This document shows, one piece after another, positions 1,742-21,617 of a stretch of 46,821 nt of DNA. The notes below the pieces were generated by a model. It searched no databases. It had not been told where the DNA came from and worked only from the letters and a program-made list of their open reading frames with translations. Made by a program: the position numbers and the translations under genes. Position 1 is the stretch's first letter. Every line of letters begins with the position of its first letter. Origin of the DNA: Betaproteobacteria bacterium. GTDB lineage: Bacteria > Pseudomonadota > Gammaproteobacteria > Burkholderiales > JAHFQX01. The DNA lies in assembly GCA_023259135.1 (NCBI GenBank), contig JAHFQX010000001.1, positions 77,833-124,653 on the forward strand, given 5' to 3'.

Positions 1742-1790
1742 GGTCTTCTCAATAATATTTCGAGTTAATCAAAGAGCTTGATTTTGGCCA

Positions 1791-3610: not shown

Positions 3611-3670
3611 TCTTCATTCCCTCCGAAAGTGCGAGAAAAGACGAAACCAAAGTGATACGGGATTAACAAT

Positions 3671-3687
3671 GGCAAGCCCCATGCCAG
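3671..3687 (-). promoter_or_regulatory. Sigma-54 (-24/-12) promoter for GT26-galE-galU-epsL
   Basis: Read on the minus strand the sequence is CTGGCATGGGGCTTGCC. GG at 3685-3684 and GC at 3673-3672 are separated by exactly ten bases, and TGGCA and TTGC match the RpoN consensus with one deviation (T for C after TGGCA). The start of transcription would fall near 3660, about 50 bases before the GT26 ATG. An AT-rich stretch lies between it and the palindrome at 3740-3779. Confidence 0.8.
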
Positions 3688-3739
3688 AACAGTAACATAT
3701 TGATTTATATCTTAAATTCACTATTTTCTCGAAAATAAA

Positions 3740-3779
3740 AATGGGGCTGATGTCGCCAGCGAGCGACATCAGCCCCATT
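3740..3779. promoter_or_regulatory. Perfect 17-bp inverted repeat, probable enhancer site; copy 1 of the ATGTCGC-N6-GCGACAT motif
   Basis: Left arm 3740-3756 and right arm 3763-3779 are perfectly complementary around a six-base centre. The core ATGTCGC-N6-GCGACAT is shared with the palindrome before epsA at 18874-18905. Its centre lies 87 bases from the -12 GC of the downstream sigma-54 promoter. On the minus strand it is followed by a T-rich run, so it could also terminate the long operon ending at 3860. The second copy has no gene to terminate in its orientation, which favours a protein-binding role. Both roles could coexist. Confidence 0.75.
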
Positions 3780-3859
3780 ACGATTACTAACTATATGATT
3801 TTTACTTTTTAAATTTGTCTCCGTATGCAGACAGCGTTGCTTTTGAATAATTAATCGAA

Positions 3860-4861
3860 TTAGGGCTTACCATAATTCATCGGCAAAAACTGCAGCCGAT
3901 CCCACGGGAATCCGTTCAGCACCGCATAGGCCGGCTTTCCCTCGAACAAGGCAGGATAAGGGTCCGGTTGTCCCAGCACCATATACGAAATGGCGTTCTG
4001 CGCCCGCAGCGCGAGTGCCCCCGACTTGTCCCAGACGACGAAACCATATCTCTGTGCCGCTTTCGCAATCACCTTGCCGGCCCTGCTCATGGGAAGCGCA
4101 TCCACATTGACCGCCGGATCGAGCCGGAAACGCAAGCCTTGCGGAATCCGGTTAGGCGCATTCTGCGGATTGAAACCATCCGAGCGGTTCGCCGGCCAGG
4201 AAAAGATGCTGGCAGTTTCGGCATCGACCACCGAAAATCCAATGGCATGGCGGATCTCGCCGCGCCGCAATTCCTCGGCTGTAATCTGCCCGCCCAGGAA
4301 AGGCAAACTCGTCGCGGTAGTGCCGTAGTATTTATAGAATACGCCGCTGCTGCTGGAAGCGTTCTGCAATCTCCCGCCCCAACATGCCTGCCATCCGCCG
4401 TCGGCTTTCTTCGCCTGCCAGAATTCCCACACGGTGTCAGTGGAAGGCTGGTAGACCGTCATTTCACCATCAGTGCCCTTGGACTGCACGGCGTAGTCGG
4501 GAATGGGCACGGCCGCCCACTGCTCCGCCAGGCTGGCATCGCTATAACCTTTTTTCTGGCAATCCCATTGCGTCACCTTGACCGTGGGTGCGCCGGCGGA
4601 TGCAATATATACTGGGCTGGTGTATTCCCGCGTATTGATCATGACCGTGCCGTAGTAAGCGGCCTTCTGCCGGATGATTTCCTTTACGAAATTGGCGGAA
4701 TTGGCGTGTAGCGGCGCATTGGCCGGGATAGGCGTGTACCAGAAACTGGTGGGCGAGAACACCGCATCGGTAATCAGCGATTGCGCTCCGGTGGAATTCG
4801 GCGCAAGTTGGTAAATGCCCAACAATAGTCCCGCGGCGATACGTCTGTTACTTAAGTTCAT
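3860..4861 (-). CDS. Uncharacterised secreted protein of the EPS locus
   Basis: A 333-residue protein with a signal peptide (NRR, hydrophobic 8-20, likely cut after TGA at 26). I cannot name a family. The mature part is aromatic-rich: SFWYTPIPANAPLH near 40-53, VPIPDYAV, TDGEMTVYQPSTDTVWEFWQ, LPFLGGQITAEELRRGEIRHA, a DALP motif and AKAAQRYGFVVWDKSG. From memory the same order of motifs (FW.TPIP, VPIP, EFWQA, DALP, RYG) occurs in unannotated secreted proteins of other bacteria such as actinobacteria. Two cysteines (WDC and QAC) could pair outside the cytoplasm. The ATG at 4861 overlaps the end of the acyltransferase gene upstream, so it is an integral operon member. A role in binding, cutting or modifying the polysaccharide is inference only. 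Confidence 0.8.
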   Translation of the reverse strand: MNLSNRRIAAGLLLGIYQLAPNSTGAQSLITDAVFSPTSFWYTPIPANAPLHANSANFVKEIIRQKAAYYGTVMINTREYTSPVYIASAGAPTVKVTQWDCQKKGYSDASLAEQWAAVPIPDYAVQSKGTDGEMTVYQPSTDTVWEFWQAKKADGGWQACWGGRLQNASSSSGVFYKYYGTTATSLPFLGGQITAEELRRGEIRHAIGFSVVDAETASIFSWPANRSDGFNPQNAPNRIPQGLRFRLDPAVNVDALPMSRAGKVIAKAAQRYGFVVWDKSGALALRAQNAISYMVLGQPDPYPALFEGKPAYAVLNGFPWDRLQFLPMNYGKP

Positions 4862-5840
4862 ACGCCCTTATTAGCCGTAGCTTCACGGAAAGCCTCTTGC
4901 CCAGAGCGATGCATCTCTGTTCGTAATAAAAGGTGGATATGTGCGCACTGACAAACAGCACCGCAAACAACAGGGGCCGTTTCGCATATTTTTCCCAGCC
5001 GGTCCCGCTGCCCAGCCAAGTGGCGGCAAGGAAGGGGTGAAGCACATAGAGCGCGTAGGAAATCGTCGCGATATAAAGTAGCGTGCGGCTACCAAGGAAC
5101 TCGGCTGTCCGTGTTTCCGGATTGAACAGCGTGGAACCCACCGTTGCTGCCGCCAGATAGGGCCGAAAATAATTCATGAATCCGCTATCGGGGTGACAGG
5201 AAATCAGCAGCAGCAGGAACAGTCCTGGAAAATGGGCGCCACGCAGAGAAATGCGCAGCCCGCCACCAATCTTGCCATTATGAATCAGCGCCAGGGATGC
5301 GCCAGCCAGAATTTCGTCCACGCGAAAATGCGTGATGACCGAGTAATGCATGCCATACGCGACTCTGAGCAAAGTGAAAGCAACGCACAACACCGGAATG
5401 AGCTGCAAGCCTCTCCGCTTGAACAGCATGGCCAGCGTCGCTATGCCGATATAGAAATGTATTTCCACGCATAGCGACCATAGATGATCCGTCACTGGGA
5501 TCAGGGGCTTGGGCGGGTAATTGGCGTAGAAGAAGAAATGCGCCGCCCAAATTTCCTTGGGTACCGGATAAACCAGGAACATTAACGCCATATACAGCCA
5601 AGCCAGCGGAACAATGCGGAAAAACCGCCGGATCAGGAAATCCATGGTCTCGTGGTGATTGATCAGGAAATGCGTCACCAGGAATCCGGACAAGGTGAAA
5701 AACAGAGACATGCCCAGCAGCCCGGTTCCCACGTTCAAATGCCAGGGCTTCGGTCCCAGAGGCAAAAAATGAGCCGCCAGCACCAGCAGAATGCTGATGC
5801 CGCGCCAGCCGTCCAGCACATTGAACCGATCGCTTTTCAT
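4848..5840 (-). CDS. Membrane acyltransferase, family 3 (probable polysaccharide O-acetyltransferase, first of two)
   Basis: An integral-membrane acyltransferase-3 protein of about 330 residues. These proteins move acetyl groups across the inner membrane onto sugars. It opens with LDGWRGISILLVLAAHF (the RGxxxxxVxxxH motif with the catalytic-type His), then LFFTLSGFLVTHFL and IRRFFRIVPLAW, which are the family's signature segments, followed by several hydrophobic helices and LYVLHPF near the end. The ATG at 5840 shares its A with the stop of the upstream gene (TGATG); a GTG three bases earlier is also possible. It lies between a second acyltransferase and the secreted protein gene. The acceptor sugar is unknown. 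Confidence 0.88.
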   Translation of the reverse strand: MKSDRFNVLDGWRGISILLVLAAHFLPLGPKPWHLNVGTGLLGMSLFFTLSGFLVTHFLINHHETMDFLIRRFFRIVPLAWLYMALMFLVYPVPKEIWAAHFFFYANYPPKPLIPVTDHLWSLCVEIHFYIGIATLAMLFKRRGLQLIPVLCVAFTLLRVAYGMHYSVITHFRVDEILAGASLALIHNGKIGGGLRISLRGAHFPGLFLLLLISCHPDSGFMNYFRPYLAAATVGSTLFNPETRTAEFLGSRTLLYIATISYALYVLHPFLAATWLGSGTGWEKYAKRPLLFAVLFVSAHISTFYYEQRCIALGKRLSVKLRLIRAYELK

Positions 5841-6898
5841 CACCTCACCAAGCTTCTTTCATTTCGGCGTTTCGCAAAAAACTCCCTGGCCGGCTCCTCG
5901 ATGCAGCGATAACTAAGCGTCGCCACACTCAAGGCCAGCAGGATGAATACAGAAATAGTCAGCGGGCTGAACGCATCGCCGAGCGGATACAGACGCTCTT
6001 GCACCCTGACGAACAGCGCCAGGGTGAAGAAATGCGAGAGATACAATGAGTACGAAACATCCCCCAACCGTGCAAATGGCCTGATGAAAACCATATTTGC
6101 CTTGCTGCCCTCGGACAAGGCCGCTGCGGCAATCAGCGCGAAGGCGGCGGCACCCCACACCAAAACCCGCGTGGCCGCAGAATCGTGAAAAATGTTGACC
6201 AGCACCCCACTTGCCGCCAGCGCTAGCAACCCCGCCTGCCAATCCTTCAGGCGCATGCCCCGCATATGTAGCGCAGCCACCAGGCTTCCCAGCAAAAATT
6301 CGAAGATCAATGGACTGGTCACCACTTGCAGCAATGGCGCCGAAGGCCGGCAAGCCACCCCGGCAACGGCGCAGCCGGTAAAACAGAACGCCATGAAGCG
6401 CAGCCGCGCGACCGGTCGCAAGCCGAGCGCCAGCGCCAGGGCGAAAACCAGGTAAAAGAACCATTCGTAAGTTAGCGTCCACGCCATCGGGATGACATAG
6501 GCCCTGTACGCATCCGTACTCATTTCAATGGTGGGCTCGCTGTACGGCAGGAACAGCATGGACATAAGGAATTTTCCGAGGTCAATATGGGTATTGATAG
6601 AACCGGACGCTAGCGACGCCAGGGCGAAGGCGGCGGCGGTCAGCATCCAATACAGCGGGGCGATGCGAAGCAGCCGGCGCGCCAGAAAGCGCCTTGCCGA
6701 AAAATCGCCGGCGGAGCCGAGCTGGGTGATCGTCATGATGAATCCGCTGATCACGAAGAAAATGTCAACGCCCGAGCCGCCGAAATACAGCAGCCACTGA
6801 CCGACGTCCGCACCCCGGCCCGCCTGCGCCGCGACATAGTGGTGACACACCACCATCGCGGCGGCCAGGCCTCTCAGTGCCTGTATCCATATAAACAT
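5840..6898 (-). CDS. Membrane acyltransferase, family 3 (second copy)
   Basis: A 352-residue acyltransferase-3 protein with about ten predicted membrane helices. IQALRGLAAAMVVCHHY carries the RGxxA...H motif near residues 5-20, then VDIFFVISGFIMTIT and ARRLLRIAPLYWMLT, all family signatures; SYSLYLSHFF is near the C-terminus. The start is ATG 6898 with GGAGCAGGA directly upstream; an upstream in-frame ATG at 6967 would overlap the preceding glycosyltransferase and lacks a ribosome site. It is only weakly similar to its neighbour, so the two are not a recent duplication and may modify different positions or sugars. Acetyl, succinyl and other acyl groups are possible. Confidence 0.9.
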   Translation of the reverse strand: MFIWIQALRGLAAAMVVCHHYVAAQAGRGADVGQWLLYFGGSGVDIFFVISGFIMTITQLGSAGDFSARRFLARRLLRIAPLYWMLTAAAFALASLASGSINTHIDLGKFLMSMLFLPYSEPTIEMSTDAYRAYVIPMAWTLTYEWFFYLVFALALALGLRPVARLRFMAFCFTGCAVAGVACRPSAPLLQVVTSPLIFEFLLGSLVAALHMRGMRLKDWQAGLLALAASGVLVNIFHDSAATRVLVWGAAAFALIAAAALSEGSKANMVFIRPFARLGDVSYSLYLSHFFTLALFVRVQERLYPLGDAFSPLTISVFILLALSVATLSYRCIEEPAREFFAKRRNERSLVR

Positions 6899-6938
6899 TC
6901 CTGCTCCAGAAATCGTTTTCGTCGAGGAACCGGGCTCG

Positions 6939-8117
6939 TCAATCCCGTCTGGAACGCACCCACTCAACTTGGCGCTTAATCAGGAATCTCAAATACAGGG
7001 GCACCTTGCCCAGCGCATAAAATGGCGCATAGACTAAGTTGTTCAGCGATAGGATGCCGCGCCCAAAGCGTATCCAGGCCATCAGCACGGCGATAGCCAA
7101 CAGCATGAGATTAAGAAAAGCCAGGGCCCAGGGCAGCACGACGCCCGTCACGCCCCAAAGCACGCTGCCCACCACGCACAAGCTCAGTACCAGCAGCGTC
7201 AGCAGCGCGAGCGGTGGCACGCACATATCGACAACCAAGGTGAACAAGTCGGCATTCCTCGTAGCCAAGCTTTTCATCAGTCGTCGTGGCCCTTCTCTCA
7301 GCAGCACGCTCAGGTGCCCGTGCTCCCAGCGCGTGCGTTGGGACCGCATGCCTTCCGTATTAGCGGGGAACGTGCTGGTGACTGTCGCTTCCGGGCAAAA
7401 CTGCGGAGCATGGCCCGCTTCAGCGAAATCCAGGCCGAGCATCAGGTCCTCTACGATATGGCCACTCGCCAGTTCCGCCCGCCGTATAAGATGCCAAGGA
7501 AAGGCCATCCCGGAGCCCATCAACTGGCACGGCAATCCTACTCGACAATATCCCAACGACCGGACGCGGTTCTTTACCGCCGAGGCGAATTCAGCCACCT
7601 TCGCCTTGAGCCCGGCGCCTGGCGGCGCATGCATCAAATACAATGCCTGCACGGGTTTTCCGCTTTCCGCGCAACGTCGCGCCAATAGGTCGAGGGCATT
7701 ACCGTGCACTAGGCAATCGGCATCCACGACGATCACTACCCCCGGCGGCGAGGCTTCCAGATGGCGGACACCAAAGTCAAGCGCATAGCCCTTGCCCCGA
7801 CGTTCGGCATCGCTGCGCACGATCACCTCCGCGCCGTTGGCCCGGGCTATCTCCGCGGTATCGTCGGTACAGTTATCGGCCACTACCAGCACGCGGTCTT
7901 CGGCGCGCAATTGTGCCCGGATCGCATTCAGCGGCCGGATGATTCCAGCGGATTCGTTGTGTGCGGGAACCAGCACCGCGATACGGGGCCGCACCCCGCA
8001 GAGTTCTCTTTTCCTTTTGAGAGCCGGTAGCGCAAGTCCCACCTGCAAAGCGAACACCAGTGCCGGCAGAAACAGCGCCAGGAATAGCAGCACGAATAGG
8101 CTCCGCAGCAGGATCAT
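6939..8117 (-). CDS. Glycosyltransferase family 2, membrane-bound, processive-type motifs
   Basis: A 392-residue GT2 enzyme. An N-terminal membrane helix (3-27) is followed by the GT-A domain: PAHNE (51-55), VVDADC (131-135, metal/nucleotide binding), ED (223-224) and QRTRW (260-264). The last motif is the QxxRW signature also found in processive or membrane GT2 enzymes. Further helices follow (about 285-350). The ATG at 8117 overlaps the upstream GT4 stop by four bases (ATGA); the earlier in-frame ATG at 8183 lies inside that gene and is rejected. It probably adds one sugar of the repeat unit at the cytoplasmic face. Donor and acceptor are not predictable. Confidence 0.9.
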   Translation of the reverse strand: MILLRSLFVLLFLALFLPALVFALQVGLALPALKRKRELCGVRPRIAVLVPAHNESAGIIRPLNAIRAQLRAEDRVLVVADNCTDDTAEIARANGAEVIVRSDAERRGKGYALDFGVRHLEASPPGVVIVVDADCLVHGNALDLLARRCAESGKPVQALYLMHAPPGAGLKAKVAEFASAVKNRVRSLGYCRVGLPCQLMGSGMAFPWHLIRRAELASGHIVEDLMLGLDFAEAGHAPQFCPEATVTSTFPANTEGMRSQRTRWEHGHLSVLLREGPRRLMKSLATRNADLFTLVVDMCVPPLALLTLLVLSLCVVGSVLWGVTGVVLPWALAFLNLMLLAIAVLMAWIRFGRGILSLNNLVYAPFYALGKVPLYLRFLIKRQVEWVRSRRD

Positions 8118-9367
8118 ATGAAATTCTTCTTCTCGACAAGGATCGGCTGCGGCAGGGTTTCCGCAGCGGCATGGAAAAGCCATGCCAGCTTAGCCGCTTC
8201 GATATCGATCGCATGACGCTTCAGCACCCGATCGCGGGCGGCTTCGCCCATGCTCGCCAGCCTGGCAACACCGGTTGCCAGGCACTCTTCGAGGGCGGTA
8301 GCCAGCGCTGCCGCATCCCCGGCCGGGAACAGCCAGCCGTGCCTGCCGTGCTCGACCAGTTCTGGGATGCCGGCTACATAAGTGGTGAGCACCGGCCGAC
8401 GCAGGGCCATCGCCTCCATGATGACTACCGGCAACCCTTCCGCGAAACTGGGGAGGACCAGCGCCCGCGCGGCAAGAATTTCCTCGCGCACCCGGTCGCC
8501 GCTTATCCAGCCGGTGATGCGTACTTGGCTTTCGAGTTTGCGCTGGACGATCAGGCGCTCTATGGCGCTGCGCATTTCGCCGTCACCTGCCAGCACCAAC
8601 TCGATGTCGATACCTTTGCGCACCAGCTGGCCGACCGCCTCCAGCAATAACAATTGCCCCTTCTGTTCGCACAGGCGGCCGACGCAGACGATGCGCGGCG
8701 CCGAGATCGATCCCGCCGGGGCGCTGTAAAAATCCGGGTCCAGGCCGCAATGCACGACCTTGATCTTCACCCAATCGGCGTATTCCGCCCAGCGACAGAT
8801 CTGGCTGCGGCCAAAAGAACTGATCGCGACGACGAACGCAGCATGCTTGACCTTCTCGCGCAGCTTGAGGAACTGCGGCTTATCGAATTCTTCCGGGCCG
8901 TGGACGGTGAAGCTGAAAGGCGGTCCGCCCAGCATGTGGGCCAACAGCGCGACCTCGGCGGAATTGGTGCCGAAATGCGCGTGCACGTGCCGTGCGCCGG
9001 AGCCCTTCAGCCAGGGCACGATGCGGCAGGCTTCGGCCAGGTAAACGAGGTGATACGGCCACGGACGATCCGCCCGCCGGCCCATATTCAAGGCCATCCG
9101 CAACGCAGCCGCAAAACGGGGAGGATGCGAGATGAGCATGCGCACACAGGCCGACAGCAGGCCAGCCATGCCACCTTGCAGTACATACCGTGTCCGTCCG
9201 CGCTCGCGCAGATCCTCGTCGTCCACCGCGTCGCCATTCCAGCCGCGCAGCGCGATGCGCTGGACCTCCAATCCCAGCCGTTCGAGCGCCAGAATCTCGC
9301 GCCGGATAAAGCTGTGGCTGACTTTGGGGTATTGGTTGACTAAATATGCGATGCCGAATCTATTCAT
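8114..9367 (-). CDS. Glycosyltransferase family 4
   Basis: A 417-residue GT-B enzyme adding a sugar from a nucleotide donor to the lipid-linked repeat unit. The N-terminal half begins YLVNQYPKVSHSFIRREI, a signature of exopolysaccharide GT4 enzymes, and contains HVHAHFGTNSAEVA and FTVHGPEEFD. The C-terminal donor domain has VGRLCEQKGQ and the PSFAEGLPVVIMEAMA segment with the two glutamates of the EX7E motif. The start is taken at ATG 9367; a GTG three codons upstream is also in frame. It overlaps the GalE-like operon style of close spacing: the acetyltransferase gene upstream ends at 9360. Retaining stereochemistry is expected for GT4; the sugar is unknown. Confidence 0.92.
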   Translation of the reverse strand: MNRFGIAYLVNQYPKVSHSFIRREILALERLGLEVQRIALRGWNGDAVDDEDLRERGRTRYVLQGGMAGLLSACVRMLISHPPRFAAALRMALNMGRRADRPWPYHLVYLAEACRIVPWLKGSGARHVHAHFGTNSAEVALLAHMLGGPPFSFTVHGPEEFDKPQFLKLREKVKHAAFVVAISSFGRSQICRWAEYADWVKIKVVHCGLDPDFYSAPAGSISAPRIVCVGRLCEQKGQLLLLEAVGQLVRKGIDIELVLAGDGEMRSAIERLIVQRKLESQVRITGWISGDRVREEILAARALVLPSFAEGLPVVIMEAMALRRPVLTTYVAGIPELVEHGRHGWLFPAGDAAALATALEECLATGVARLASMGEAARDRVLKRHAIDIEAAKLAWLFHAAAETLPQPILVEKKNFI

Positions 9368-9899
9368 GCTGGCCACCGGTTGTTTTCATCGAGGGACGGA
9401 TAATTCTCGCTGGCACACCGACCGCGCTGCACCCGTCTGGCACGTCGTTCAGCACCACGGCCATCGCGCCTATCTTGCAATCGTTACCGATCCGGACCCC
9501 GCCCAGCACCTGAGCGTAGGCGCCGAATTCCACGTTGTTACCGACCAGCGGCACCGCCCCGTCCTCGGTACGGTTACCTATCGTGACTCCTTGCCGCAAG
9601 GTGCAATTAGCGCCAATGCGGGCATCGGGATGGATGAAAATCCCGCCGAAATGCCATATCCGCAAGCCCGGCCCGATCACTGCGGATTTGGGCAGGCTGA
9701 TCGCCAGCAGTGTTTCGACCAGACGGAACAGCAGCCAGTACACCTGCGTCATCAACCGCTTCCGTAAACCGTGCGGCAGGCGGTCGACACTCCGTCCGAA
9801 GCGGTAGACCCATACCGCCCAGATTGACTGTTCTTTCAGGAAAGGCCGCGGTGCCGAACAGCGGCGTAGGTCGGCCTGCCAGTCAGGATCGTGCTTCAT
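9360..9899 (-). CDS. Serine-acetyltransferase-like hexapeptide-repeat acetyltransferase
   Basis: A 179-residue left-handed beta-helix acetyltransferase of the CysE/WcaB type. The N-terminal helical region (1-65) is followed by hexapeptide repeats with the GLRIWHFGGIFIHPDARIG region holding a catalytic His, TLRQGVTIGNR, GNNVEFGAYAQVLGGVRIGNDCKIGAMAVV and the end VPARIIRP. In EPS clusters these enzymes acetylate nucleotide or lipid-linked sugars using acetyl-CoA in the cytoplasm; a true CysE role is unlikely here because the gene sits between a polymerase and a glycosyltransferase, two bases from the former's stop. With the two membrane acyltransferases it makes three candidate O-acetylation enzymes in one cluster. 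Confidence 0.88.
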   Translation of the reverse strand: MKHDPDWQADLRRCSAPRPFLKEQSIWAVWVYRFGRSVDRLPHGLRKRLMTQVYWLLFRLVETLLAISLPKSAVIGPGLRIWHFGGIFIHPDARIGANCTLRQGVTIGNRTEDGAVPLVGNNVEFGAYAQVLGGVRIGNDCKIGAMAVVLNDVPDGCSAVGVPARIIRPSMKTTGGQHE

Positions 9900-9901
9900 G
9901 C

Positions 9902-11308
9902 TTACGCGGGCTCTTGAGAAAGCCGTGATCGGGGCACGGCCGGGCCCGCTTTAAGTTCAGGCTGCAGCTCTGCCTTGGGGATTAGCGCCAGCGCGCAGGC
10001 GGCGCCCACGAAGAACCAGTAGTACCAATTGAATGCCAGGTAATCCAGCATGTTGTCCGAGAACGCAAAGAACAGGTATTCGATCAGCAACGTGATCACG
10101 ATGAGCGTACCGAGCTGGTCTTCCTTGGCACCCAGTTTCAGCGTGAAGAACAGTCGAACGTACATCCATATGGAACTCAGCACGCCGATCATGCCGGTTT
10201 CGAAATACCATTGCACATAGGTGTTGTGCGCGCCCCGGGGAATTCCGCCCGCCAGCGGAAAGAATATTGTGGAATAGTGCTTGAACGCGTTGAGTCCGTA
10301 GCCGAATACCGCATTCGACCAATCCATCCACTCCAGGCTGGCTTTCCAGATCAATTGCCGCCAAGCGAAGGAATTGAGCTTGGCGTACTGCACATATTCA
10401 TTGCCGCTGCCAAGGTCGAGCAGGCGGTCGCGCACACTGGGAATCAAAAGCGCCAACATCGGCAAAAGCAGCAGATAGACCAGATACTTGCGCTCGAACA
10501 CCAGGCCATAGATGGCAAAAATCACGAGGCAACCAAACCAGGCGCTGCGGGTCTGTGTCAACAGCAGCAAGCCGAGCAGCAGGAACATATATATCCACAG
10601 CGGCCAACGCCAAGCCTGCGATGCATTGATCATGGTCGTCTTGAGCCGGTAGAGCAGCAGTGAGATATTCAGTACCAGGTAGAACGCCAGGATGTTGGGA
10701 TGAGTGAAAGTGCTTTGCAGGCGGAAGTCGTTCCCCGACACCATGCCGGCATGCTGGGCGATATCGACGAAGGCATACAGCGTCGGGATTAGCGATGACA
10801 GCAGGATCACAGTAATACATCGTTCGAAATCGGCCTTCGACCGGACCACGTAGAATGCAATCGTGAATATTGCGCAGTACGATACCAGCGCAAGAAAAAC
10901 ACGGATCGCGTCCTTGAGTTCGGGGGCATGGGGAATGGCTGCCAGAGCTACCAGCAACACCGGTCCCCAGATCGAGACTATCCGGCGGGACAAGCCAGAA
11001 GGCTGTTCCAATACAAACAACAGCGCGATCAAAATAATCAACGCGTTGATAAGGCCGCCGATGCCAATGCCGCTGGCGAATTTGGAGGACTCGAACGCCA
11101 AGTCGCCAGACGCACGAAAGAACAAGATCAAGAAAAACAGCTTGCGCTTGTCCAGCACCAGCATCAGTAGCATCGCCAACACGAACGGAAGCGCTGAAAC
11201 CAAGATCGGATTGCCTTTGACTAGCGACACGTACACGACCGCGCCTAGGCCGGTGATCATGCCGGCAAGAAGGATCGCGAAGCTGCTAAAAATCGGCTTG
11301 ACGATCAT
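9902..11308 (-). CDS. Wzy-like O-antigen ligase/polymerase family membrane protein
   Basis: A 468-residue protein with about twelve hydrophobic helices and a large periplasmic loop between about 300 and 370, the layout of the Wzy_C/O-antigen ligase family. The loop has GYGLNAFKHYSTIFFP and PRGAHNTYVQWYFETGMIGV, matching the family pattern (G.G.n.f, HN.yl......G). The enzyme would join undecaprenyl-linked repeat units in the periplasm. It sits between a GT2 and the hexapeptide acetyltransferase, and together with the flippase and EpsE/F/G completes a Wzx/Wzy pathway. An assignment as ligase rather than polymerase cannot be excluded from sequence, but there is no other polymerase candidate in the window. 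Confidence 0.88.
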   Translation of the reverse strand: MIVKPIFSSFAILLAGMITGLGAVVYVSLVKGNPILVSALPFVLAMLLMLVLDKRKLFFLILFFRASGDLAFESSKFASGIGIGGLINALIILIALLFVLEQPSGLSRRIVSIWGPVLLVALAAIPHAPELKDAIRVFLALVSYCAIFTIAFYVVRSKADFERCITVILLSSLIPTLYAFVDIAQHAGMVSGNDFRLQSTFTHPNILAFYLVLNISLLLYRLKTTMINASQAWRWPLWIYMFLLLGLLLLTQTRSAWFGCLVIFAIYGLVFERKYLVYLLLLPMLALLIPSVRDRLLDLGSGNEYVQYAKLNSFAWRQLIWKASLEWMDWSNAVFGYGLNAFKHYSTIFFPLAGGIPRGAHNTYVQWYFETGMIGVLSSIWMYVRLFFTLKLGAKEDQLGTLIVITLLIEYLFFAFSDNMLDYLAFNWYYWFFVGAACALALIPKAELQPELKAGPAVPRSRLSQEPA

Positions 11309-11317
11309 GGCGCCGCT

Positions 11318-12397: not shown

Positions 12398-12407
12398 TGC
12401 TCGTCTC

Positions 12408-13403
12408 TTAAGCGGTTTGCAGCGATACCAGATCGCTACTGCCGGTCCATGCCCTGACATAAGCGGAATTCTTGCCGTAACTGTTGTCCAGCACGGTGTT
12501 GGGCTTGCTCAGTAGGCAGGCCAGAATATGGCCGTGCAGGCGGTCGGTGATAACCCGGTCGTGGGTCGAGAACAACGCGACCGCGTCGTTGATCAGCTTG
12601 CCCGAATAGGAGATCCAAAGCCGGGATAGCACCTTGTTTCCACCCCAGCCCAGGCCGAGCCGGTACGTCATGCGCATCGCTCTGCGGAAACGGTCAATCC
12701 GGGACTCGCGGTCGCCGACAACGAGCGGCCAGTCGGTCGTCGCCGCAACCTCGAAATCGGCCGTCTCGCCCGTCTGTTTTTTCTCGCTGTCCATACGACT
12801 GATCCGCAGTGCCCCGGCCGCCGTATCGTACAGAGGGAGGATCGGATAGAGTTGGTGCGCCATGTCCGGCAATAGGTAAACATGCTCGGTGAATTCATGG
12901 GCGACTTGGTAAGAGGCTTGGTCGCGCACGCATATATGCACGTCTGGATGAGTACGGAACAGCTTTGCGGAACGGCGCTTCTCTTCCGCCGAAGAGAAAT
13001 AAATGGTCTGCGGCAGAACGACGATACGGTTTTCCGGCCGTGTCCGCACGACGGCTTCGCGCAGTGCCTGCGTCCCGTATTCGTAATAAAGATCCCCGAA
13101 ATTGCCCCCGCCGTGAAAGATCACGACATCCCCCCCCCGGATCCACCGCGGATCGTAAGCGAATGCCGCGGCGCTTATCCTGGGCACCAAGTGGTAGCGC
13201 TCGAAAAACGCCAGGGTGCCGTGCATGATCAGAAGGTCGCCGATATTTCCGTGCACCGGAAAATCCACATAGTGGAAAGGGCGGTTGCCGATCAGCTCGA
13301 CAATGATCCCGTGCCTGTCGGACAGCCCAGCCATCAGCGCGGCATGGCCGGGATCGGGAGCGCTCAGTTGCCTCAGGATTTCCGGATTGACGCGCTTATT
13401 CAT
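12408..13403 (-). CDS. Polysaccharide pyruvyl transferase (EpsO/ExoV-like)
   Basis: A 331-residue member of the polysaccharide pyruvyl transferase family, which places a pyruvate ketal from phosphoenolpyruvate on a sugar of the repeat unit, adding negative charge. Family signatures: HGNIGDLLI (51-59), VVIFHGGGNFGDLYY (93-107), VVLPQTIYF (128-135), CVRDQASY (158-165), LLPDMAHQLYP (177-187) and TDRLHGHILACLLSKP near the C-terminus. It resembles EpsO of methanolan clusters. The start at 13403 overlaps the end of the flippase gene. The pyruvyl transfer step is thought to occur on the lipid-linked unit at the cytoplasmic face, so it should act before flipping. Confidence 0.92.
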   Translation of the reverse strand: MNKRVNPEILRQLSAPDPGHAALMAGLSDRHGIIVELIGNRPFHYVDFPVHGNIGDLLIMHGTLAFFERYHLVPRISAAAFAYDPRWIRGGDVVIFHGGGNFGDLYYEYGTQALREAVVRTRPENRIVVLPQTIYFSSAEEKRRSAKLFRTHPDVHICVRDQASYQVAHEFTEHVYLLPDMAHQLYPILPLYDTAAGALRISRMDSEKKQTGETADFEVAATTDWPLVVGDRESRIDRFRRAMRMTYRLGLGWGGNKVLSRLWISYSGKLINDAVALFSTHDRVITDRLHGHILACLLSKPNTVLDNSYGKNSAYVRAWTGSSDLVSLQTA

Positions 13404-14694
13404 AGCAGCGCCTTGTAAATAACCTGAATGCGGCCACGCAATCCGACGAGGTCGGCAGCATTTTCGGGATGCGTTCTTTCAGCGCCAAGGGGTACAGCCC
13501 CAGGGTGACGATCAGCCTGAGCGCGGCGCCGACCAGCATCAGCGCGCTGAGGTAAATGTGAATATCCTGTCTGGGCAGGAACGGCAGCGCCAGGAACACC
13601 GGCAATACCGAAATAAGTTGCCGCACGAACACCAGGCCGGGGCGGCCGCCGGCATTGAAGCGCTGGGCCAGCGTCCAGCTGGCGCCGGTGATCACGCATT
13701 CGAACAGCAGGATCGCAAACGGAATTGTCGTGGAGGCAAAAGATTCGCCGTACACCCAGACGATCAACCATGGCGAAAGCGCCGCCCCGATTGCCGCCAG
13801 TATCAGCATCGGCACGAAGGTCAGGCGGAAGGCGCCCCGGACATGATGCGACAACTCGTCCACATTCCTGCCGGCAAAGCGCGAGTAGAGCGCCGTGGAA
13901 ACGGCCTCTTGTACCGCGCCGATCAGGCGGGAAGTGGTGAAGGCCAGGGCGTAGAAGCCATATTCAACAATAGTGCCGATACTGAGCAGCGCGATCTTGT
14001 CGAAATTGACCAGCAACAGGCTCAACAGTACCGTGCCGTGATGACTTGCGCCGTAGCCCAGCACGCTTCTCCAGGTGGCAGGTTCCCCGCCCGGCGCGAC
14101 ACCGTTCCAGACCTCGTGCTTTTTCGCCCAGAATATGCCCAGCACCGTCAGCAGGCCGCTGACGACTATCTGCGCGATCAGGATATCCTTGAAATGGACC
14201 TCGTCCAGGGTCAGGACCAGCAACAGCAGCAATAGCAGATTGCCGGCTATCAGCAGGAAGCGCATCAGGTTGAAAAAACGCAGACGGTCGTGCAATTGGC
14301 TTAGCCCGTAGAAATATCCCTGTCCGGCCGAAACCCCGGTCATGAGCAGGATCAATCCGATCTGATCGTGCAGTTGCGCTTCGCCGGTAATACCCATCCC
14401 CAGCCACGCCAGCAGCACAGAGAAAACCGCGACGAATAGCAGCGAGAGGATCATGAAGCCGCGATAGTCGAACGGCCGGCCGGCGCCCTTGTGATAAATA
14501 AAGCTGTTGGCGAGCCCGAACAGCGACGCATTGGCAGACAGCATGGCGATCAACAGCGCCCCGGACAGGAGGCCGCGCCCTTCCGGACCAAGGATGCGGG
14601 CGGTGATCACCGAGGAAAGAAACCCCAGCGCGGCGATCACGATTGTCATCATCAGCGTCGTACCCGACGATTTGAATAAGGCTCTGGAAACCAC
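13396..14694 (-). CDS. Wzx-type polysaccharide flippase (GTG start)
   Basis: A 432-residue polytopic membrane protein of the MOP/MATE flippase superfamily with about twelve hydrophobic helices. It begins ALFKSSGTTLMMTIVIAALGF and has TARILGPEGRGLLSG (about 30-44), the classic N-terminal signature of polysaccharide flippases. It moves the undecaprenyl-linked repeat unit to the periplasm. The start is a GTG at 14694, preceded by AAAGGAAA; an in-frame TGA stands directly before it, so no longer version is possible, and a nearby ATG at 14698 is in another frame. It lies between EpsG and the pyruvyl transferase, in a tight operon. Confidence 0.9.
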   Translation of the reverse strand: MVSRALFKSSGTTLMMTIVIAALGFLSSVITARILGPEGRGLLSGALLIAMLSANASLFGLANSFIYHKGAGRPFDYRGFMILSLLFVAVFSVLLAWLGMGITGEAQLHDQIGLILLMTGVSAGQGYFYGLSQLHDRLRFFNLMRFLLIAGNLLLLLLLVLTLDEVHFKDILIAQIVVSGLLTVLGIFWAKKHEVWNGVAPGGEPATWRSVLGYGASHHGTVLLSLLLVNFDKIALLSIGTIVEYGFYALAFTTSRLIGAVQEAVSTALYSRFAGRNVDELSHHVRGAFRLTFVPMLILAAIGAALSPWLIVWVYGESFASTTIPFAILLFECVITGASWTLAQRFNAGGRPGLVFVRQLISVLPVFLALPFLPRQDIHIYLSALMLVGAALRLIVTLGLYPLALKERIPKMLPTSSDCVAAFRLFTRRCYE

Positions 14695-14758
14695 TCATTT
14701 CCTTTCAATCATGAAAAAAAGCACATGCAAACAGAGCCAGCAGTCGGTCGGTGATTCC

Positions 14759-15634
14759 CTACAGCAGGACCGCAGCAACGATCTGTACATCGCTCACGAG
14801 CAGTTGATCCTGCACATTGGCCAGATCGGATAAAGGAGTTGCGTTGAGTCGTGACACCAGCAGCGCGCCGCCGCAGCGCGTAGCCACTGCCTGAGCATCC
14901 GATGTCAGCGTAGCAGGGGGAGTGTCGATGATTACGACATCGTAGATTTCCTGCACTAGACGCAGTAGATCGGCGAGGTTCTTGCGGTTAAGCAGTTCCT
15001 GCGGGTTGGGGGGAGCGGGACCGGCGCCCAACACGGAAAGATTGGATAGCGCATCGATCCTGGAAATCACATCTACCCCCGCACGGCCGATCAGAATATC
15101 CGACAGCCCTTGCGCCTTGCGTAAGCTGAACATGGATCGCTGTGCCGGCTGCCGCAGATTCGCGTCAATCAGCAAAGTCTCTTCGCCCAACTGCGAGAAC
15201 ACTACCGCCAAATTGGCGGCGAGATAGCTGCAACCCTCTCCTGGATTGGCCGAGATCACCGCTAGCGCTTTGTTCCCGGTGTTCAACCAGCGCAGGGACA
15301 CTTGACTGCGCAAAGCCCGCAGGGCCTCTACCTGCGGAGAAAATGGCTGATAGGCGGCAACTAGCTCCTTGCTAAAGTGACTCTGATCGGCAGGCAAATA
15401 GGGATAGTCGAACTGGATCGCGAGCGCCCGCTGAATATCTTCTTGGGTCACGAACCCAAGCTTTCTTGCGGCCTCGCCGAACCGCAAGCCCTCCTTGCTT
15501 TGCAGTTGCAGGGTCCGCTCGATTTGCTCCGGCGTTATCTTTCCCATCTCCAGCAGCAGGTGGCCGATCATGGTTTCCCGGTAGTTGCTTGCCGAGAGCG
15601 GCAGCGGGCTCGGGCTGATATGGCTGATGTTCAT
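14759..15634 (-). CDS. epsG: EpsG-like tyrosine-kinase-family protein with degenerate P-loop
   Basis: A 291-residue protein of the BY-kinase/ParA-like fold that partners the chain-length protein EpsF, as the split Wzc of these clusters. An N-terminal MshEN/GspE-like region (about 22-80: IGHLLLEMGKITPEQIERTL) is typical of EpsG. The Walker B is VVIIDTPP near 233-240. The Walker A reads NPGEGCSYLAANLA: Cys135 replaces the catalytic lysine. The Walker A' reads LLIDANLR, with Asn159 in place of the second Asp. There is no C-terminal tyrosine cluster (it ends VSDVQIVAAVLL). The start is ATG 15634 with AAGGAA upstream. It may act as a structural regulator rather than an active kinase. Confidence 0.85.
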   Translation of the reverse strand: MNISHISPSPLPLSASNYRETMIGHLLLEMGKITPEQIERTLQLQSKEGLRFGEAARKLGFVTQEDIQRALAIQFDYPYLPADQSHFSKELVAAYQPFSPQVEALRALRSQVSLRWLNTGNKALAVISANPGEGCSYLAANLAVVFSQLGEETLLIDANLRQPAQRSMFSLRKAQGLSDILIGRAGVDVISRIDALSNLSVLGAGPAPPNPQELLNRKNLADLLRLVQEIYDVVIIDTPPATLTSDAQAVATRCGGALLVSRLNATPLSDLANVQDQLLVSDVQIVAAVLL

Positions 15635-15643
15635 CAATATTCC

Positions 15644-17047
15644 TTATGGCGAAGGCAGATACTTGCTGGATGGACCGTGCAGCAGCCGCAAACCGGTCAC
15701 CACCGGTCTCTCCTGCCTAAGCGCCACTACCGGCACCCGGAGCAGATTGGCGAGATCGCTGCTGCTGCGTATCCTGCGATCCAGCAACTCCGCGATCAGG
15801 CCCAGCCCGATGCCCATCAATCCGCCCAGTACGGCCGAAAGCATGATGTTCAGGCTCACCCTGGGGGTAGCGGGCAAGCCAGGCGGCTGGGCCTCATTCA
15901 GGATGGCAATGTCATTGTGGTTGGACTGCCCTTCCATGCTAGTTTGGGAAAAGCGCTGAGTCGCTGCATCCAACGCCTTCTGTGCGGTTTCGACATCTTT
16001 CTGCAGCACCGCCAGCTCGTCGCGCATGCGGTTAAGCTCCAATACTTTGATCTTCTGCAGCGCCACTTGTGCACGCAACTCTCCTTCGCGCTGCTGCTGG
16101 ATCCTCGCGGTGCCGTCTATGCTGCTGGTCGCGCTGCGGATTTCGCTTTGCAACTGGGCTTGAGTCTTGCCGAGTTCGGCCTTCGCTGCTTCGTATTGAG
16201 GATGGTTCGGCCCCAACCGTTGCCCAATCTCGGCGAGTTTAGACGCCGCTTTCCCGGCATCGATCCGCAAACTCTGGACCACAGGACTCAGCGCGACATC
16301 GGGAGAATCTTCCGGATTCCCTTGTGCGTTCTGCCGGCGCGACCTAGCCTCAATCGCCAATGCCTGAGCCATCACCAGTTGCTGCGACAGCTCGCTCAGG
16401 CGGGCGCTTTCGACGTCAAGCCTTTCGTCAGCGCTAGTGATGCCTTTTTCCTGCTGATACCGTGACAATCTGGACTGCGCCTGCTCTAGGTTATCGCGCA
16501 GCATTTTTGCTCGCGTGCTGAAATAATTGGCCGCTTCCTGTGCCGGTTCCACCTTGAGCCGTGTGCTGAGGTCCTTGTAGGATTGCGCAAACGCATTTGC
16601 CACAGCCGCGGCCAGTACCGGATCCTGATCGCTGTATCCGATGTTGAGCACGTTGCTGCCGCGTGACGATTCGACATCCAGCTTCTTGAGCAAGCGTTCC
16701 GCGATCCAGTCCCGGAATTGGCCACGCCCGCCCGTGGCATCGATGAACTCTTCCTTCAGTGGCGCGCTCTCGGAAAGCCTTAGGCCATCCACCACCTTGA
16801 GCGCGACGCTCCGGTTCTTGATGATATTTATCTGCGTTTCCACATAACCCGGCAATTGCAGGGCAAGCAACGGTGTGCCGGTCACCGAATCCACCCCGGT
16901 ATAGCTCAGCACTATCTGGGTTGTCGCCTTGTAGTACTTGGGTAACACCAAGCTCACTGCAGTCGCGGTCAGCACGGTAATCAACAATGTCGCCAGCACG
17001 ATTTTGATGCGCGCCTTCAAAATGAGAGGCAAGCCGGCGAGATTCAT
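15644..17047 (-). CDS. epsF: EpsF-like polysaccharide co-polymerase / chain-length determinant
   Basis: A 467-residue inner-membrane protein of the Wzz/GNVR type that sets polymer length and links polymerisation to export. An N-terminal helix (about 15-37) and a second near 400-425 (LNIMLSAVLGGLMGIGLGLIAELLDRRIR) flank a long periplasmic region rich in coiled coil (about 170-380: DNLEQAQSRLSRYQQEKG and further heptads). LPKYYKATTQIVLSY follows the first helix, as in EpsF proteins. There is no fused kinase domain; the kinase-like partner EpsG follows six bases later. The ATG at 17047 has AAGGGG upstream. Confidence 0.92.
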   Translation of the reverse strand: MNLAGLPLILKARIKIVLATLLITVLTATAVSLVLPKYYKATTQIVLSYTGVDSVTGTPLLALQLPGYVETQINIIKNRSVALKVVDGLRLSESAPLKEEFIDATGGRGQFRDWIAERLLKKLDVESSRGSNVLNIGYSDQDPVLAAAVANAFAQSYKDLSTRLKVEPAQEAANYFSTRAKMLRDNLEQAQSRLSRYQQEKGITSADERLDVESARLSELSQQLVMAQALAIEARSRRQNAQGNPEDSPDVALSPVVQSLRIDAGKAASKLAEIGQRLGPNHPQYEAAKAELGKTQAQLQSEIRSATSSIDGTARIQQQREGELRAQVALQKIKVLELNRMRDELAVLQKDVETAQKALDAATQRFSQTSMEGQSNHNDIAILNEAQPPGLPATPRVSLNIMLSAVLGGLMGIGLGLIAELLDRRIRSSSDLANLLRVPVVALRQERPVVTGLRLLHGPSSKYLPSP

Positions 17048-17056
17048 GAGGGCCCC

Positions 17057-17860
17057 TTAGAACAGGCTTTCGCCCACGTAAAGCACGTCATTCGGGCGAA
17101 TAAGGTCCATCATTTTTGGGCTCAGCTCTTCGGCAATCCCATTCGCATTGTGGCGCAGCAATTTGATGTTTCTCTGCGTACCGCGTGCGGTAGGGCCACC
17201 GCCCTGAGCCAGCGCCTGGATCACCGTCATGTTTCGCTCGATGCGGTAGGATCCCGGGTTCTGGGCTTCGCCGTAGATGTAGAACACCGGGGCGCGATGC
17301 ACATAAATCTCGTCGCCAGGGACGATCCGGATATTTTCTTCGCTTTTGTCGTTGAGAAAGATGGAGGGGATATCGACTTCCTTGCGATAGGGCCGACCGT
17401 CACGCTGACCGGAAATAACGACCACATCGGAGGCATTAGGCATCACGCCGCCGGCAAGTGCGATAATTTCCGCCAGCCGCGTGTTGGATGTCTCCAGCGG
17501 GAAGCGACCGGGTTTGTTGACGAGACCCAGCACGGCTACCTGACTACCGCGCACTTCAATAAGGGCGATGTTGACCTGCGGGTTCTTGATGAAGTTTTCG
17601 TCCTTCAGCCGCTGCGCGATCAGCCGCTCGGCCGCGGCAGACGACAAACCGCCGACCGGCACCGAACCGAGCAGCGGAAAAGTAATGTTGCCGCTTTCCG
17701 ACACACGGGTCTCCAGCGTGAGGTCCGGATTCTGAAATACGGTAATACGGATCGCATCTCCCGGGCTCAACAGGTAATCGAATTTGTCCTGTGCCGGCGA
17801 TGCCAGTGTAAACATCAGCATCCCTACCCCGACGAGCATATGCAACAGTTTTCTAGTCAC
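17057..17860 (-). CDS. epsE: EpsE-like periplasmic/outer-membrane polysaccharide export protein (GTG start)
   Basis: A 267-residue polysaccharide export protein of the Wza family, with a signal peptide (VTRKLLHMLVGVGMLMFTLA, cut near SPA) and no lipobox. The Poly_export domain begins YLLSPGDAIRITVFQNPDLT; two SLBB-type regions follow (VAVLGLVNKPGRFPLET and FYIYGEAQNPGSYRIERNMT). It would form the periplasmic channel with EpsF. The start is taken as GTG 17860, preceded by AAGGGAG and giving a proper signal peptide; the ATG at 17920 has no ribosome site, overlaps the upstream gene and would bury the signal peptide behind 20 polar residues. Confidence 0.9.
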   Translation of the reverse strand: MTRKLLHMLVGVGMLMFTLASPAQDKFDYLLSPGDAIRITVFQNPDLTLETRVSESGNITFPLLGSVPVGGLSSAAAERLIAQRLKDENFIKNPQVNIALIEVRGSQVAVLGLVNKPGRFPLETSNTRLAEIIALAGGVMPNASDVVVISGQRDGRPYRKEVDIPSIFLNDKSEENIRIVPGDEIYVHRAPVFYIYGEAQNPGSYRIERNMTVIQALAQGGGPTARGTQRNIKLLRHNANGIAEELSPKMMDLIRPNDVLYVGESLF

Positions 17861-17913
17861 GTCATTCTCCCTTTTCCGACTGAACCAGGGCCCCGACCGG
17901 GGCAAAGCGATGC

Positions 17914-18432
17914 TTACCATACGGCACCCGGCAAAACATGGGCGTAAGCTTCACGCAGATGCACCGACATCGTCCGCAACAGGGTTAGCAGAAATTTATT
18001 ACCCAGTCGCGGGGCCTGTAACAAAATATGGTTGAGCGCATCCCGGGTGAGGACTGCGAAATCCGTGGGGGTAGTGGCGACGCAGCTCACGCAGCGCGGC
18101 TGGCTACCCGCCATCGTGGCCTCGCCTATGGCCGATCCGGCGGAAACCTCGGTAATTTTTTCGCTGCCGGCGCCCGGTACCCGTTTTCTCAGCTCGGCCA
18201 TGCCCGTCAGTATCAGCACAAGATGGTCGCCGCTGGCGCCTTCCTTCAGCAACGCATAATTACGTGGCGCCGCGTAGCAGCGCATGTAGTGACAGATCAC
18301 TCGTATTTCATCCCTGTCCAAGTCATCGAACAGCCTGACCCGATGGGCGATTTCCAGTATCTCGTCGAGATAGCGATCGGCTCTTCCGAGATCCTCGATA
18401 TCGCCATAAAGCTGGTTAAGCGCGTTAGTCAT
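17914..18432 (-). CDS. Cyclic-nucleotide-binding-domain protein without a DNA-binding domain
   Basis: A 172-residue protein that is mostly one cNMP/Crp-type beta-barrel (about 30-150: LFDDLDRDEIRVICHYMRCY, then GDHLVLILTGMAEL and the phosphate-binding-cassette-like GSAIGEATMAGSQPRCV, with the Gly-Glu and Arg of the cassette kept). No helix-turn-helix follows; the end is a helix (LLRTMSVHLREAYAHVL). It is first in the long minus-strand EPS run, 53 bases before epsE. It may bind a cyclic nucleotide and regulate assembly or a partner protein; ligand and role are inference. The ATG at 18432 has only a weak ribosome site, so the start is less certain. Confidence 0.8.
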   Translation of the reverse strand: MTNALNQLYGDIEDLGRADRYLDEILEIAHRVRLFDDLDRDEIRVICHYMRCYAAPRNYALLKEGASGDHLVLILTGMAELRKRVPGAGSEKITEVSAGSAIGEATMAGSQPRCVSCVATTPTDFAVLTRDALNHILLQAPRLGNKFLLTLLRTMSVHLREAYAHVLPGAVW

Positions 18433-18799
18433 TCAAATCAAAGTGGAACGTCAACATGCTAAAGGCAACGCCCTGATAAGACGGTCGCTGATGACTGTCG
18501 AAACAATCCCGGCCCAAGGCGGGTTGACATCCATTGCGCGCCTTATCAGAAACGATTGCATCGTAGTTATCCTGCTTACCCTCAACAATAGGCCGATCAG
18601 ACTAACGAAGCCGGAGTTCTTCCTGTTTTCCATATTCCAATCCATCGGCATCATGCTGCTGATTTTTGTTCATGCCGAAAGGTGATCCGGGATTTCGCTG
18701 GCGAAGAAATTCTCGGTTGGCGTGCTGTCCCGGCAGTTGCCCTTGCGGCTCATTGAGCGGCCTGCCCCATATTCTCATTTCTACTTTTCCTTCCAAATA

Positions 18800-18813
18800 G
18801 CATTGGCTGGCCC
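18800..18813 (-). promoter_or_regulatory. Weak sigma-54-like site, possible promoter of the minus-strand EPS operon
   Basis: On the minus strand GG (18813-18812) and GC (18801-18800) are ten bases apart, reading GGGCCAGCCAATGC. Only the GG, one C, the T before GC and the T after it agree with the consensus. Its -12 GC lies 89 bases from the centre of the palindrome at 18874-18905, close to the 97 and 87 of the two good promoters. Chance cannot be excluded. Confidence 0.3.
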
Positions 18814-18834
18814 TTGTCTGCATCCGGAGACAAG
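18813..18834. repeat. Inverted repeat, 7-bp arms with 8-base spacer
   Basis: CTTGTCT (18813-18819) and AGACAAG (18828-18834) are perfectly complementary. The site lies between the divergent EPS operons and touches the weak minus-strand -24 element, so it could be an operator for a second regulator such as EpsA. Small repeats of this size also occur by chance. Confidence 0.35.
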
Positions 18835-18873
18835 TCTAGTTATTTAAAATCACAGAGTTATAGACACGCACCC

Positions 18874-18905
18874 GGATTAATGTCGCCGAGTGGCGACATT
18901 AATCC
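18874..18905. promoter_or_regulatory. Perfect 14-bp inverted repeat, probable enhancer site; copy 2 of the ATGTCGC-N6-GCGACAT motif
   Basis: Arms 18874-18887 and 18892-18905 are perfectly complementary around GAGT. The core ATGTCGC-N6-GCGACAT and the flanking T-R and Y-A are identical in layout to the palindrome at 3740-3779. The centre lies 97 bases from the -12 GC of the epsA promoter. A T-rich stretch follows (18906-18928), giving a terminator-like look, but no plus-strand gene lies upstream, so a terminator would have nothing to end. A binding site for a sigma-54 activator with an intervening bendable AT-rich region is the better reading. Confidence 0.8.
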
Positions 18906-18972
18906 CATTTAATTTTTTATTTTTCCGGCCGCGCATTCCTAAGTTATTTTGTTATTCAAATACTTGTTGTGA

Positions 18973-18988
18973 AGGCACACTTCTTGCG
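18973..18988 (+). promoter_or_regulatory. Sigma-54 (-24/-12) promoter for epsA-epsB-vanZ-like
   Basis: AGGCACACTTCTTGCG has GG (18974-18975) and GC (18986-18987) exactly ten bases apart, with GGCAC and TTGC both matching the RpoN consensus. Transcription would start near 18999, giving a leader of about 73 bases before epsA. Confidence 0.85.
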
Positions 18989-19071
18989 AATTCCTTTGAC
19001 TGCAATCACGCATCCGCGTCAGGACTGTTGCCCTGATTACGCTTCACGCCACAGGTACGCTCAAATCCGAT

Positions 19072-21256: not shown

Positions 21257-21617
21257 CCCCGCCATGCGGCGGCTGTTTGCCATTTTTGGCTGTCTGGCGC
21301 TGGTCGGATCGATCTTCATTGGGGGAGAACAGCCGGCTGCCGGCCATCTGTTCCCCCCACTTTGGGACAAGGCCGCACATCTGGCCGCCTATGGCGCAAT
21401 GGGGGTCCTCGCTGCCCTGGCCTTTCCCGCGCAATCGCTACTGACGATTCTGTTGGTGGTAGGAGGGATCGGGGGTGCGGACGAAATCCATCAGATGTTT
21501 ATTCCCGGCCGTCAGGCCGGGCTGGGCGATTTGCTGGCGGACTTGGGGGGCGGCCTCATCATATTGCCAGCCATCACTAGATTGAGATGCTTTTATTATC
21601 ATACATCGGACTCATGA
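21243..21617 (+). CDS. VanZ-like small membrane protein
   Basis: A 124-residue membrane protein of the VanZ-like family. Landmarks are DKAAHLAAYGAMG (about 41-53) and DEIHQMFIPGRQAGLGDLLA (about 81-100), which match the family's core; three or four short helices surround them. The ATG overlaps the epsB stop, with AAGGGG upstream, so it belongs to the epsA-epsB unit. VanZ-like proteins are common in EPS and PEP-CTERM loci, but their biochemical function is unknown. The stop codon lies inside the hairpin at 21610-21649. Confidence 0.85.
   Translation: MKPINPAMRRLFAIFGCLALVGSIFIGGEQPAAGHLFPPLWDKAAHLAAYGAMGVLAALAFPAQSLLTILLVVGGIGGADEIHQMFIPGRQAGLGDLLADLGGGLIILPAITRLRCFYYHTSDS

Follow-up and report, generated by a model that had tools for sequence, protein, structure and literature searches.

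Predicted GlrR (QseF) box pairs upstream of two σ54-type promoters in a betaproteobacterial exopolysaccharide locus

Introduction

The two-component system GlrK/GlrR (also named QseE/QseF) has been described mainly from enteric bacteria. It acts there on envelope homeostasis via glmY, which is described with three upstream sites (TGTN12ACA), integration host factor (IHF), and σ54, and via rpoE, the second target (PMC6075780); the QseF consensus has been given as TGTCN10GACA (PMC8745638). Operons of the qseEGF type are widespread beyond enterics, with a matching operon order in Betaproteobacteria and Acidithiobacillia, and the accessible part of that report does not name non-enteric targets (PMC12691602). 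QseEF knockouts affect amylovoran biosynthesis in Erwinia amylovora (reviewed in PMC4490474), an exopolysaccharide (EPS) phenotype for which the available text describes no promoter array, and Francke et al. (PMC3162934) linked σ54 to EPS generally and counted a QseF-like activator group. Another described system, the PEP-CTERM box of PrsR (Haft et al. 2006, PMC1569441), also combines a two-part activator motif with a σ54 site and is EPS-linked; its motif 1 ends in TTTACA, and it occurs together with PrsR and exosortase. Here, we analyzed a stretch of 46,821 nucleotides (hereafter, the window) from Betaproteobacteria bacterium (assembly GCA_023259135.1, contig JAHFQX010000001.1, positions 77,833 to 124,653), which holds an EPS locus with two σ54-like promoters, each preceded by a pair of dyad boxes. 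We propose, with a probability of roughly 0.88, that both EPS units are jointly activated through these paired boxes by GlrK/GlrR and σ54, probably together with IHF.

Results

Two exact palindromes with the core ATGTCGC-N6-GCGACAT are present in the window, one at 3740–3779, between the GT26-galE-galU-epsL unit and the last gene of the main EPS operon (stop codon, 3860), and one at 18874–18905, in the divergent region ahead of epsA-epsB-vanZ. A first-pass annotation of this DNA had reported both palindromes, each upstream of a σ54-like site (3671–3686, minus strand, and 18973–18988, plus strand) and with 87 and 97 bp, respectively, between the palindrome center and the GC of the −12 element; on re-check, the palindrome positions were base-exact, the promoter coordinates agreed, and the distances derived from them held. 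What that annotation had overlooked is a second dyad (TGTCTGCATMCGGAGACA) 65–66 bp upstream of the proximal one at both promoters, along with IHF-like sites. All boxes share the form TGTC-N10-GACA. The σ54 promoter of the GT26 unit (TGGCATGGGGCTTGCC, score 19.3) is preceded on the minus strand by a predicted proximal GlrR box at −82 (TGTCGCTCGCTGGCGACA, 3751–3768) and a predicted distal box at −147 (TGTCTGCATACGGAGACA, 3816–3833), with IHF-like sites at −19 (AATCAATATGTTA, 3693–3705, 9/9) and, between the boxes, at −114 (AATCATATAGTTA, 3788–3800, 8/9). The epsA promoter (AGGCACACTTCTTGCG, score 18.7) shows the same arrangement on the plus strand, i.e., predicted proximal and distal boxes at −92 (TGTCGCCGAGTGGCGACA, 18881–18898) and −158 (TGTCTGCATCCGGAGACA, 18815–18832) and IHF-like sites at −19 (ATTCAAATACTTG, 18954–18966, 8/9) and −125 (AATCACAGAGTTA, 18848–18860, 8/9). 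Distances are counted from the first T of the σ54 promoter; the σ54 scores use weights based on the general −24/−12 consensus, and the IHF-like sites are sequence matches to the general IHF consensus. The epsA array is 10–11 bp longer than the GT26 array, a difference of one helical turn that is compatible with looping.

The exact box occurs four times in the window, compared to 0.59 occurrences expected from composition. A genome search for the core, proposed by the first-pass annotation, found exact TGTCGC-N6-GCGACA at only two places in the 2.58-Mb genome (reversed-pattern control, 0), both in the window and both ahead of σ54 sites; a genome-wide repeat family was dropped as an explanation because the exact core has just these two copies. 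With up to two mismatches, the core occurred at 178 places, compared to 237 in the control, and informative value is thus confined to exact copies and their setting. Thirteen of 17 one-mismatch cores listed in the genome were scanned for promoters and arrays. Of 100 same-order genomes, own genome included, 47 had at least one exact copy. When a full array was defined as two boxes (each matching at least 7/8) at set spacing ahead of a σ54 site scoring at least 18.5, two were found in the window, none in 60 window-size Markov sequences, and none in 3.55 Mb of Markov sequence of intergenic composition. The two arrays are similar far outside the boxes (alignment score of 28; mean 3.0 and maximum 10 in 300 shuffles), and either may have been copied from the other. 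IHF-like sites (8 or 9/9, forward) were present at −19 in six of seven EPS promoters compared, and inter-box IHF-like sites at −114 to −125 in 10/16 promoters; the background was 20 of 3232 upstream positions, those matches included.

Several lines of evidence indicate that the genome encodes the putative cognate activator. A response regulator encoded beside a further array (C36) had GlrR as its best NCBIfam match (628 bits; next family, 427 bits) and shares 59.5% identity with E. coli GlrR at 98% coverage (ZraR, 45.7%). In a tree of 18 rows, which took in seven of 13 GlrR-like loci (six were dropped by a motif filter) and left out the genome's own C72 protein, it fell into a clade of nine with E. 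coli GlrR (support 100/100); two other rows from this genome, C39 and C80, are long and of unsure placement. The glrR gene is part of a kinase-lipoprotein-glrR operon, in which the kinase matches E. coli GlrK (34% identity over 410 aa, E 4e-63) and the lipoprotein, in the QseG position, has a lipobox and a short C-terminal likeness to QseG. From the NCBIfam match, the identity, and the tree, we regard the response regulator as a predicted GlrR orthologue. An RpoN homologue, the absence of which the first-pass annotation had named as refuting its reading, is present (463 bits, cut-off 277).

Array C36 lies directly after glrR, and among the 13 GlrR-like loci of other genomes a two-box array was found beside glrR in five and a single box in one more. 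By homology or sequence, the gene following glrR encodes a glycine-zipper protein in the own genome and in two of these loci, L204 and L210. Its counterpart in L206 and L208 encodes a BON/EF-hand protein, and look-alikes are present in L201 and L207. Among 19 genomes tested, GlrR was found in 12 (at least 565 bits), while the remaining seven peaked at 344 bits; it was present in 5/5 genomes with an epsA array and 7/14 without. Because the genome encodes several other NtrC-family activators (C36b, C44, C80, C39, and C72), one of these could own the boxes instead; however, among their loci (L075–L083) an array was found at the GlrR locus only, the published GlrR site fits the boxes, and C44 groups with E. 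coli NtrC in the tree, which makes such an owner very unlikely.

E. coli glmY served as a positive control, in which our scan recovered three boxes, at −107, −170, and −203; two of them are 63 bp apart, and one reads TGTCGCTTTCTGGCGACA, which is the core described by the first-pass annotation. The boxes of the window fit the published consensus and are read here as GlrR/QseF sites. The likeness to the loci described here comprises TGTC-N10-GACA boxes upstream of a −24/−12 site, IHF-like sites between the boxes and ahead of the promoter, and an operon in the order kinase-lipoprotein-glrR. Unlike in E. coli, where the target is a small RNA, the predicted targets here are EPS and envelope protein genes, the boxes number two (−82 and −147) rather than three, and a terminator-like hairpin overlaps the array.

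An EpsA alignment search of our genome collection yielded 71 loci. A strict array scan found an array ahead of epsA in five of these (L129–L132 and L165; reversed control, 0/71), all with the proximal box at −82/−83 and the distal box at −147/−148. Among the first 25 EpsA loci, the array was present in the four nearest, Methylobacillus sp. MM3, a Methylotenera metagenome-assembled genome (MAG), HGW-Betaproteobacteria-1, and Methylophilaceae UBA7525, and no array was found in the other 21 within 500 bp upstream, counted from the start of the match, which differs from the start codon in several loci. Methylobacillus sp. MM3 has a second array, ahead of GT26-galE-galU (contiguity with the epsA locus was checked by a 1-kb overlap); two weakly scoring boxes in L240, a locus from a wrong contig, do not enter the counts. 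A wider scan of the 71 loci, the window, and six further stretches of the own genome (1.33 Mb) gave 10 matches, compared to one in the reversed control; one match is weak (L167), one is single-boxed (own mdoG), and the Rhodocyclaceae MAG locus L165 was newly added. A TIGR03020 search of 369 genomes gave five matches above the cut-off, and among the 12 best loci only the window's own carries an array. Across 14 aligned two-box arrays, the box-to-box spacing is 64–68 bp, and 20 columns are invariant, including box bases, promoter bases, and an inter-box TCA element. Arrays with matching spacing are thus present at epsA in the nearest relatives. With RpoN present, this kept spacing supports two proposals of the first-pass annotation, namely that the palindromes resemble sites of a σ54 enhancer-binding protein and that both units would be under one switch.

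The boxes might also be read as an operator of the neighboring EpsA, a LuxR-type regulator, used for autoregulation. The epsA gene is adjacent, its product has a GerE helix-turn-helix, and dyad sites suit LuxR-type proteins. A LuxR-type protein alone, however, is not known to act from far upstream of σ54 sites, whereas the boxes lie in just that position and recur beside genes linked to glrR as well as at E. coli glmY; together with the 21 of 25 EpsA loci that lack an array within 500 bp upstream, this renders autoregulation by EpsA extremely unlikely.

The first-pass annotation had instead attributed the palindromes to PrsR, an activator linked to PEP-CTERM genes. Two features accord with this attribution, i.e., a two-part motif with a σ54 site at comparable distance (PMC1569441) and an EPS locus of XrtB type. 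Against it, no TIGR02915 match above the cut-off was found in the genome, which is 98.99% complete (best match, 377.3 of 502.6 bits), and this best match is itself a predicted GlrR orthologue; moreover, exosortase (PF09721) had no match in the genome, and the half-site in the window is GACA, not TTTACA. The PrsR/PEP-CTERM attribution was therefore rejected, and the chance that the boxes are PEP-CTERM boxes of PrsR is vanishingly small.

Both palindromes can also form hairpins, a property that the first-pass annotation had overlooked. On the GT26 side (3740–3779, minus strand), an 18-pair hairpin with the proximal GlrR box inside is followed by TTTATTTT (z −7.3); it ranks first among the terminator-like sites of the region, has a T run, lies 80 bp beyond the upstream stop codon, and probably acts as intrinsic terminator of the operon that ends at 3860. 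On the epsA side (18874–18905, plus strand), a 14-pair hairpin that also encloses the proximal box is followed by CATTTAATTTTTTATTTTT (z −4.6); it is terminator-like, but its T-rich tail is delayed, and a 64-aa open reading frame (ORF; 18491–18685) is the sole frame of the same direction that precedes it. At the matching GT26-side place, Methylobacillus sp. MM3 keeps a hairpin of 15 pairs, with a compensating stem change and a poor T run. These stems are the two longest among 34 terminator-like sites in window positions 1–20000 (shuffle mean 21.5), and the palindromes could in principle be plain intrinsic terminators that share their stem sequence by chance. Such a reading leaves unexplained the distal boxes (hairpin z −1.2 on the GT26 side and −2.5 on the epsA side), the fixed distance to the σ54 sites, and the occurrence of the same boxes at glmY and glrR. 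In addition, the epsA boxes of relatives fold less strongly (z −3.3, −2.5, −2.8, and −0.1) and not as one long stem, suggesting that an enhancer role is general and that termination is a likely second role at the GT26 promoter. Termination alone is accordingly a very improbable account of both palindromes, while the GT26-side palindrome probably doubles as a predicted terminator of the upstream operon.

The exact box TGTC-N10-GACA occurs 28 times in the genome, compared to 11 times for the reversed-pattern control. All 28 were checked for a promoter, and six had a σ54 score of at least 18.5 in array position; these correspond to four promoters, namely both EPS promoters, C36 (after the response-regulator gene), and C3:73064. 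The latter, 4.8 kb left of the window, has a near-perfect σ54 site with a single GlrR-like box at −161 and lies ahead of mdoG-mdoH, which are involved in periplasmic glucans; mdoG-mdoH is a possible further GlrR target with one recognized box only. Another exact box (L221) has a σ54 score of 18.7 at −215, which looks like a chance match, and the exact box at L222 has a score of 18.2 at −120. A candidate fifth GlrR promoter, C17:3572, downstream of a lytic-transglycosylase-like ORF, passed the array scan with an exact σ54 site (TGGCACGGTCGTTGC) and, at −91 and −158, two boxes that match at 7 of 8 positions. Sites with at most one mismatch to TGGCAC-N5-TTGC number 188 in the genome (93 + 95; control, 59 + 46), and the array scan covered 30 of these.

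The assignment of the two units by the first-pass annotation was correct by family profile matches. The minus-strand unit begins with a GT26 glycosyltransferase of the WecB/TagA/CpsF type (2786–3610; TIGR00696, 125.8 bits), followed by galE (1791–2789; TIGR01179, 410 bits) and galU (797–1741; TIGR01099, 365 bits). EpsL, also in this unit, is represented by two adjacent ORFs (window 1–725 and, left of the window, L241:191–1458), each matching one half of TIGR03014, which may reflect a split gene, a frameshift, or an assembly error. On the plus strand, epsA (19072–19854) encodes the LuxR-type regulator of XrtB-type EPS loci (TIGR03020, 254 bits, above the cut-off), epsB (19841–21256) an undecaprenyl-phosphate glucose phosphotransferase (WcaJ; TIGR03023, 489.5 bits), and the third gene (21243–21617) a VanZ-like protein (NF037970, 46.7 bits). 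The earlier description of this unit as carrying the initiating enzymes does not hold for epsA itself, which encodes no enzyme.

Between the two arrays lies the main EPS operon (3860–18432, minus strand, 14.5 kb), which by profile matches encodes a cyclic nucleotide monophosphate (cNMP)-binding protein, EpsE, EpsF, EpsG, Wzx, a pyruvyl transferase, glycosyltransferases, Wzy, a hexapeptide transferase, acyltransferases, and a 333-aa protein of no recognized family; an array scan of its own strand found no array. The cNMP-binding protein is encoded by its first gene (17914–18432), and the EpsG tyrosine kinase (14759–15637) has an N-terminal MshE-type cyclic di-GMP-binding motif (NF053729, 52.6 bits, cut-off 38); nucleotide signals may thus act on this EPS locus. 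Elsewhere in the window, an S-adenosylhomocysteine riboswitch was identified at 39453–39533 on the plus strand (RF01057, 68.1 bits).

Discussion

From the boxes, their spacing, the promoters, their conservation, and the presence of GlrR and RpoN, all of which are read from the sequence, we infer the following chain of events. The membrane kinase GlrK and an outer-membrane QseG-like lipoprotein would sense the condition of the envelope and lead to phosphorylation of GlrR; phosphorylated GlrR would then occupy both boxes, 65–66 bp apart, with IHF probably bending the DNA between the boxes and after them. GlrR would loop to the σ54 polymerase at −24/−12 and open the promoter, such that epsA-epsB-vanZ and GT26-galE-galU-epsL would be switched on together, and EpsA, as a LuxR-type regulator, may in turn drive the 14.5-kb operon lying between the arrays. 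The GT26-side box, as part of the stem of a predicted intrinsic terminator, would also shield the GT26 unit from read-through.

Several observations weigh against this proposal. Neither the own protein nor any match in the 19 genomes reaches 763 bits, the curated cut-off for GlrR, and the lipoprotein in the QseG position resembles that of E. coli only weakly (E 0.29 in blastp; hhalign probability 8%), which is in keeping with the QseG divergence reported in PMC12691602. In the E. coli rpoE control, the array was not recovered by our scan. In addition, no array was seen within the stretch examined at 66 of the 71 loci that encode an EpsA relative, seven genomes, including three named Methylobacillus species, have GlrR without an epsA array, and both palindromes are terminator-like hairpins as well.

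The EPS proteins and the predicted regulators differ in their similarity to Methylobacillus sp. MM3; 18 of 20 EPS proteins are 60–84% identical (the other two, 59.6% and 51.7%), while GlrR is 62% identical and the kinase, across 302 aa, 46%. EpsA of a same-order genome (L046) is just 32% identical. This pattern hints that the EPS locus was acquired by horizontal transfer; differing rates of change may also account for the difference between the EPS proteins and GlrR and the kinase. In the Rhodocyclaceae locus L165 (same DNA as L220), a second GlrR paralogue is located inside the EPS locus (11774–13336), just after epsA-epsB with its array. Based on these hints and on the kept hairpin, we tentatively raise the possibility, which we consider somewhat doubtful, that the EPS genes travel as a portable cassette with ready-made GlrR enhancers at both ends, which would plug into the GlrK/GlrR system of a recipient proteobacterium, and that one 40-bp element at the GT26 promoter would serve as GlrR enhancer in DNA and as terminator hairpin once transcribed.

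Among the literature matches listed, in a search that lay mostly outside subscription papers, none described GlrR sites at promoters of EPS genes. The effect of QseEF on amylovoran is already in print; new here would be EPS units as targets of a switch whose type is known. The arrays name candidate direct GlrR targets outside enterics, namely the EPS units, the envelope gene beside glrR, and possibly mdoG-mdoH. They would thereby tie slime production to envelope sensing, at promoters that are directly testable.

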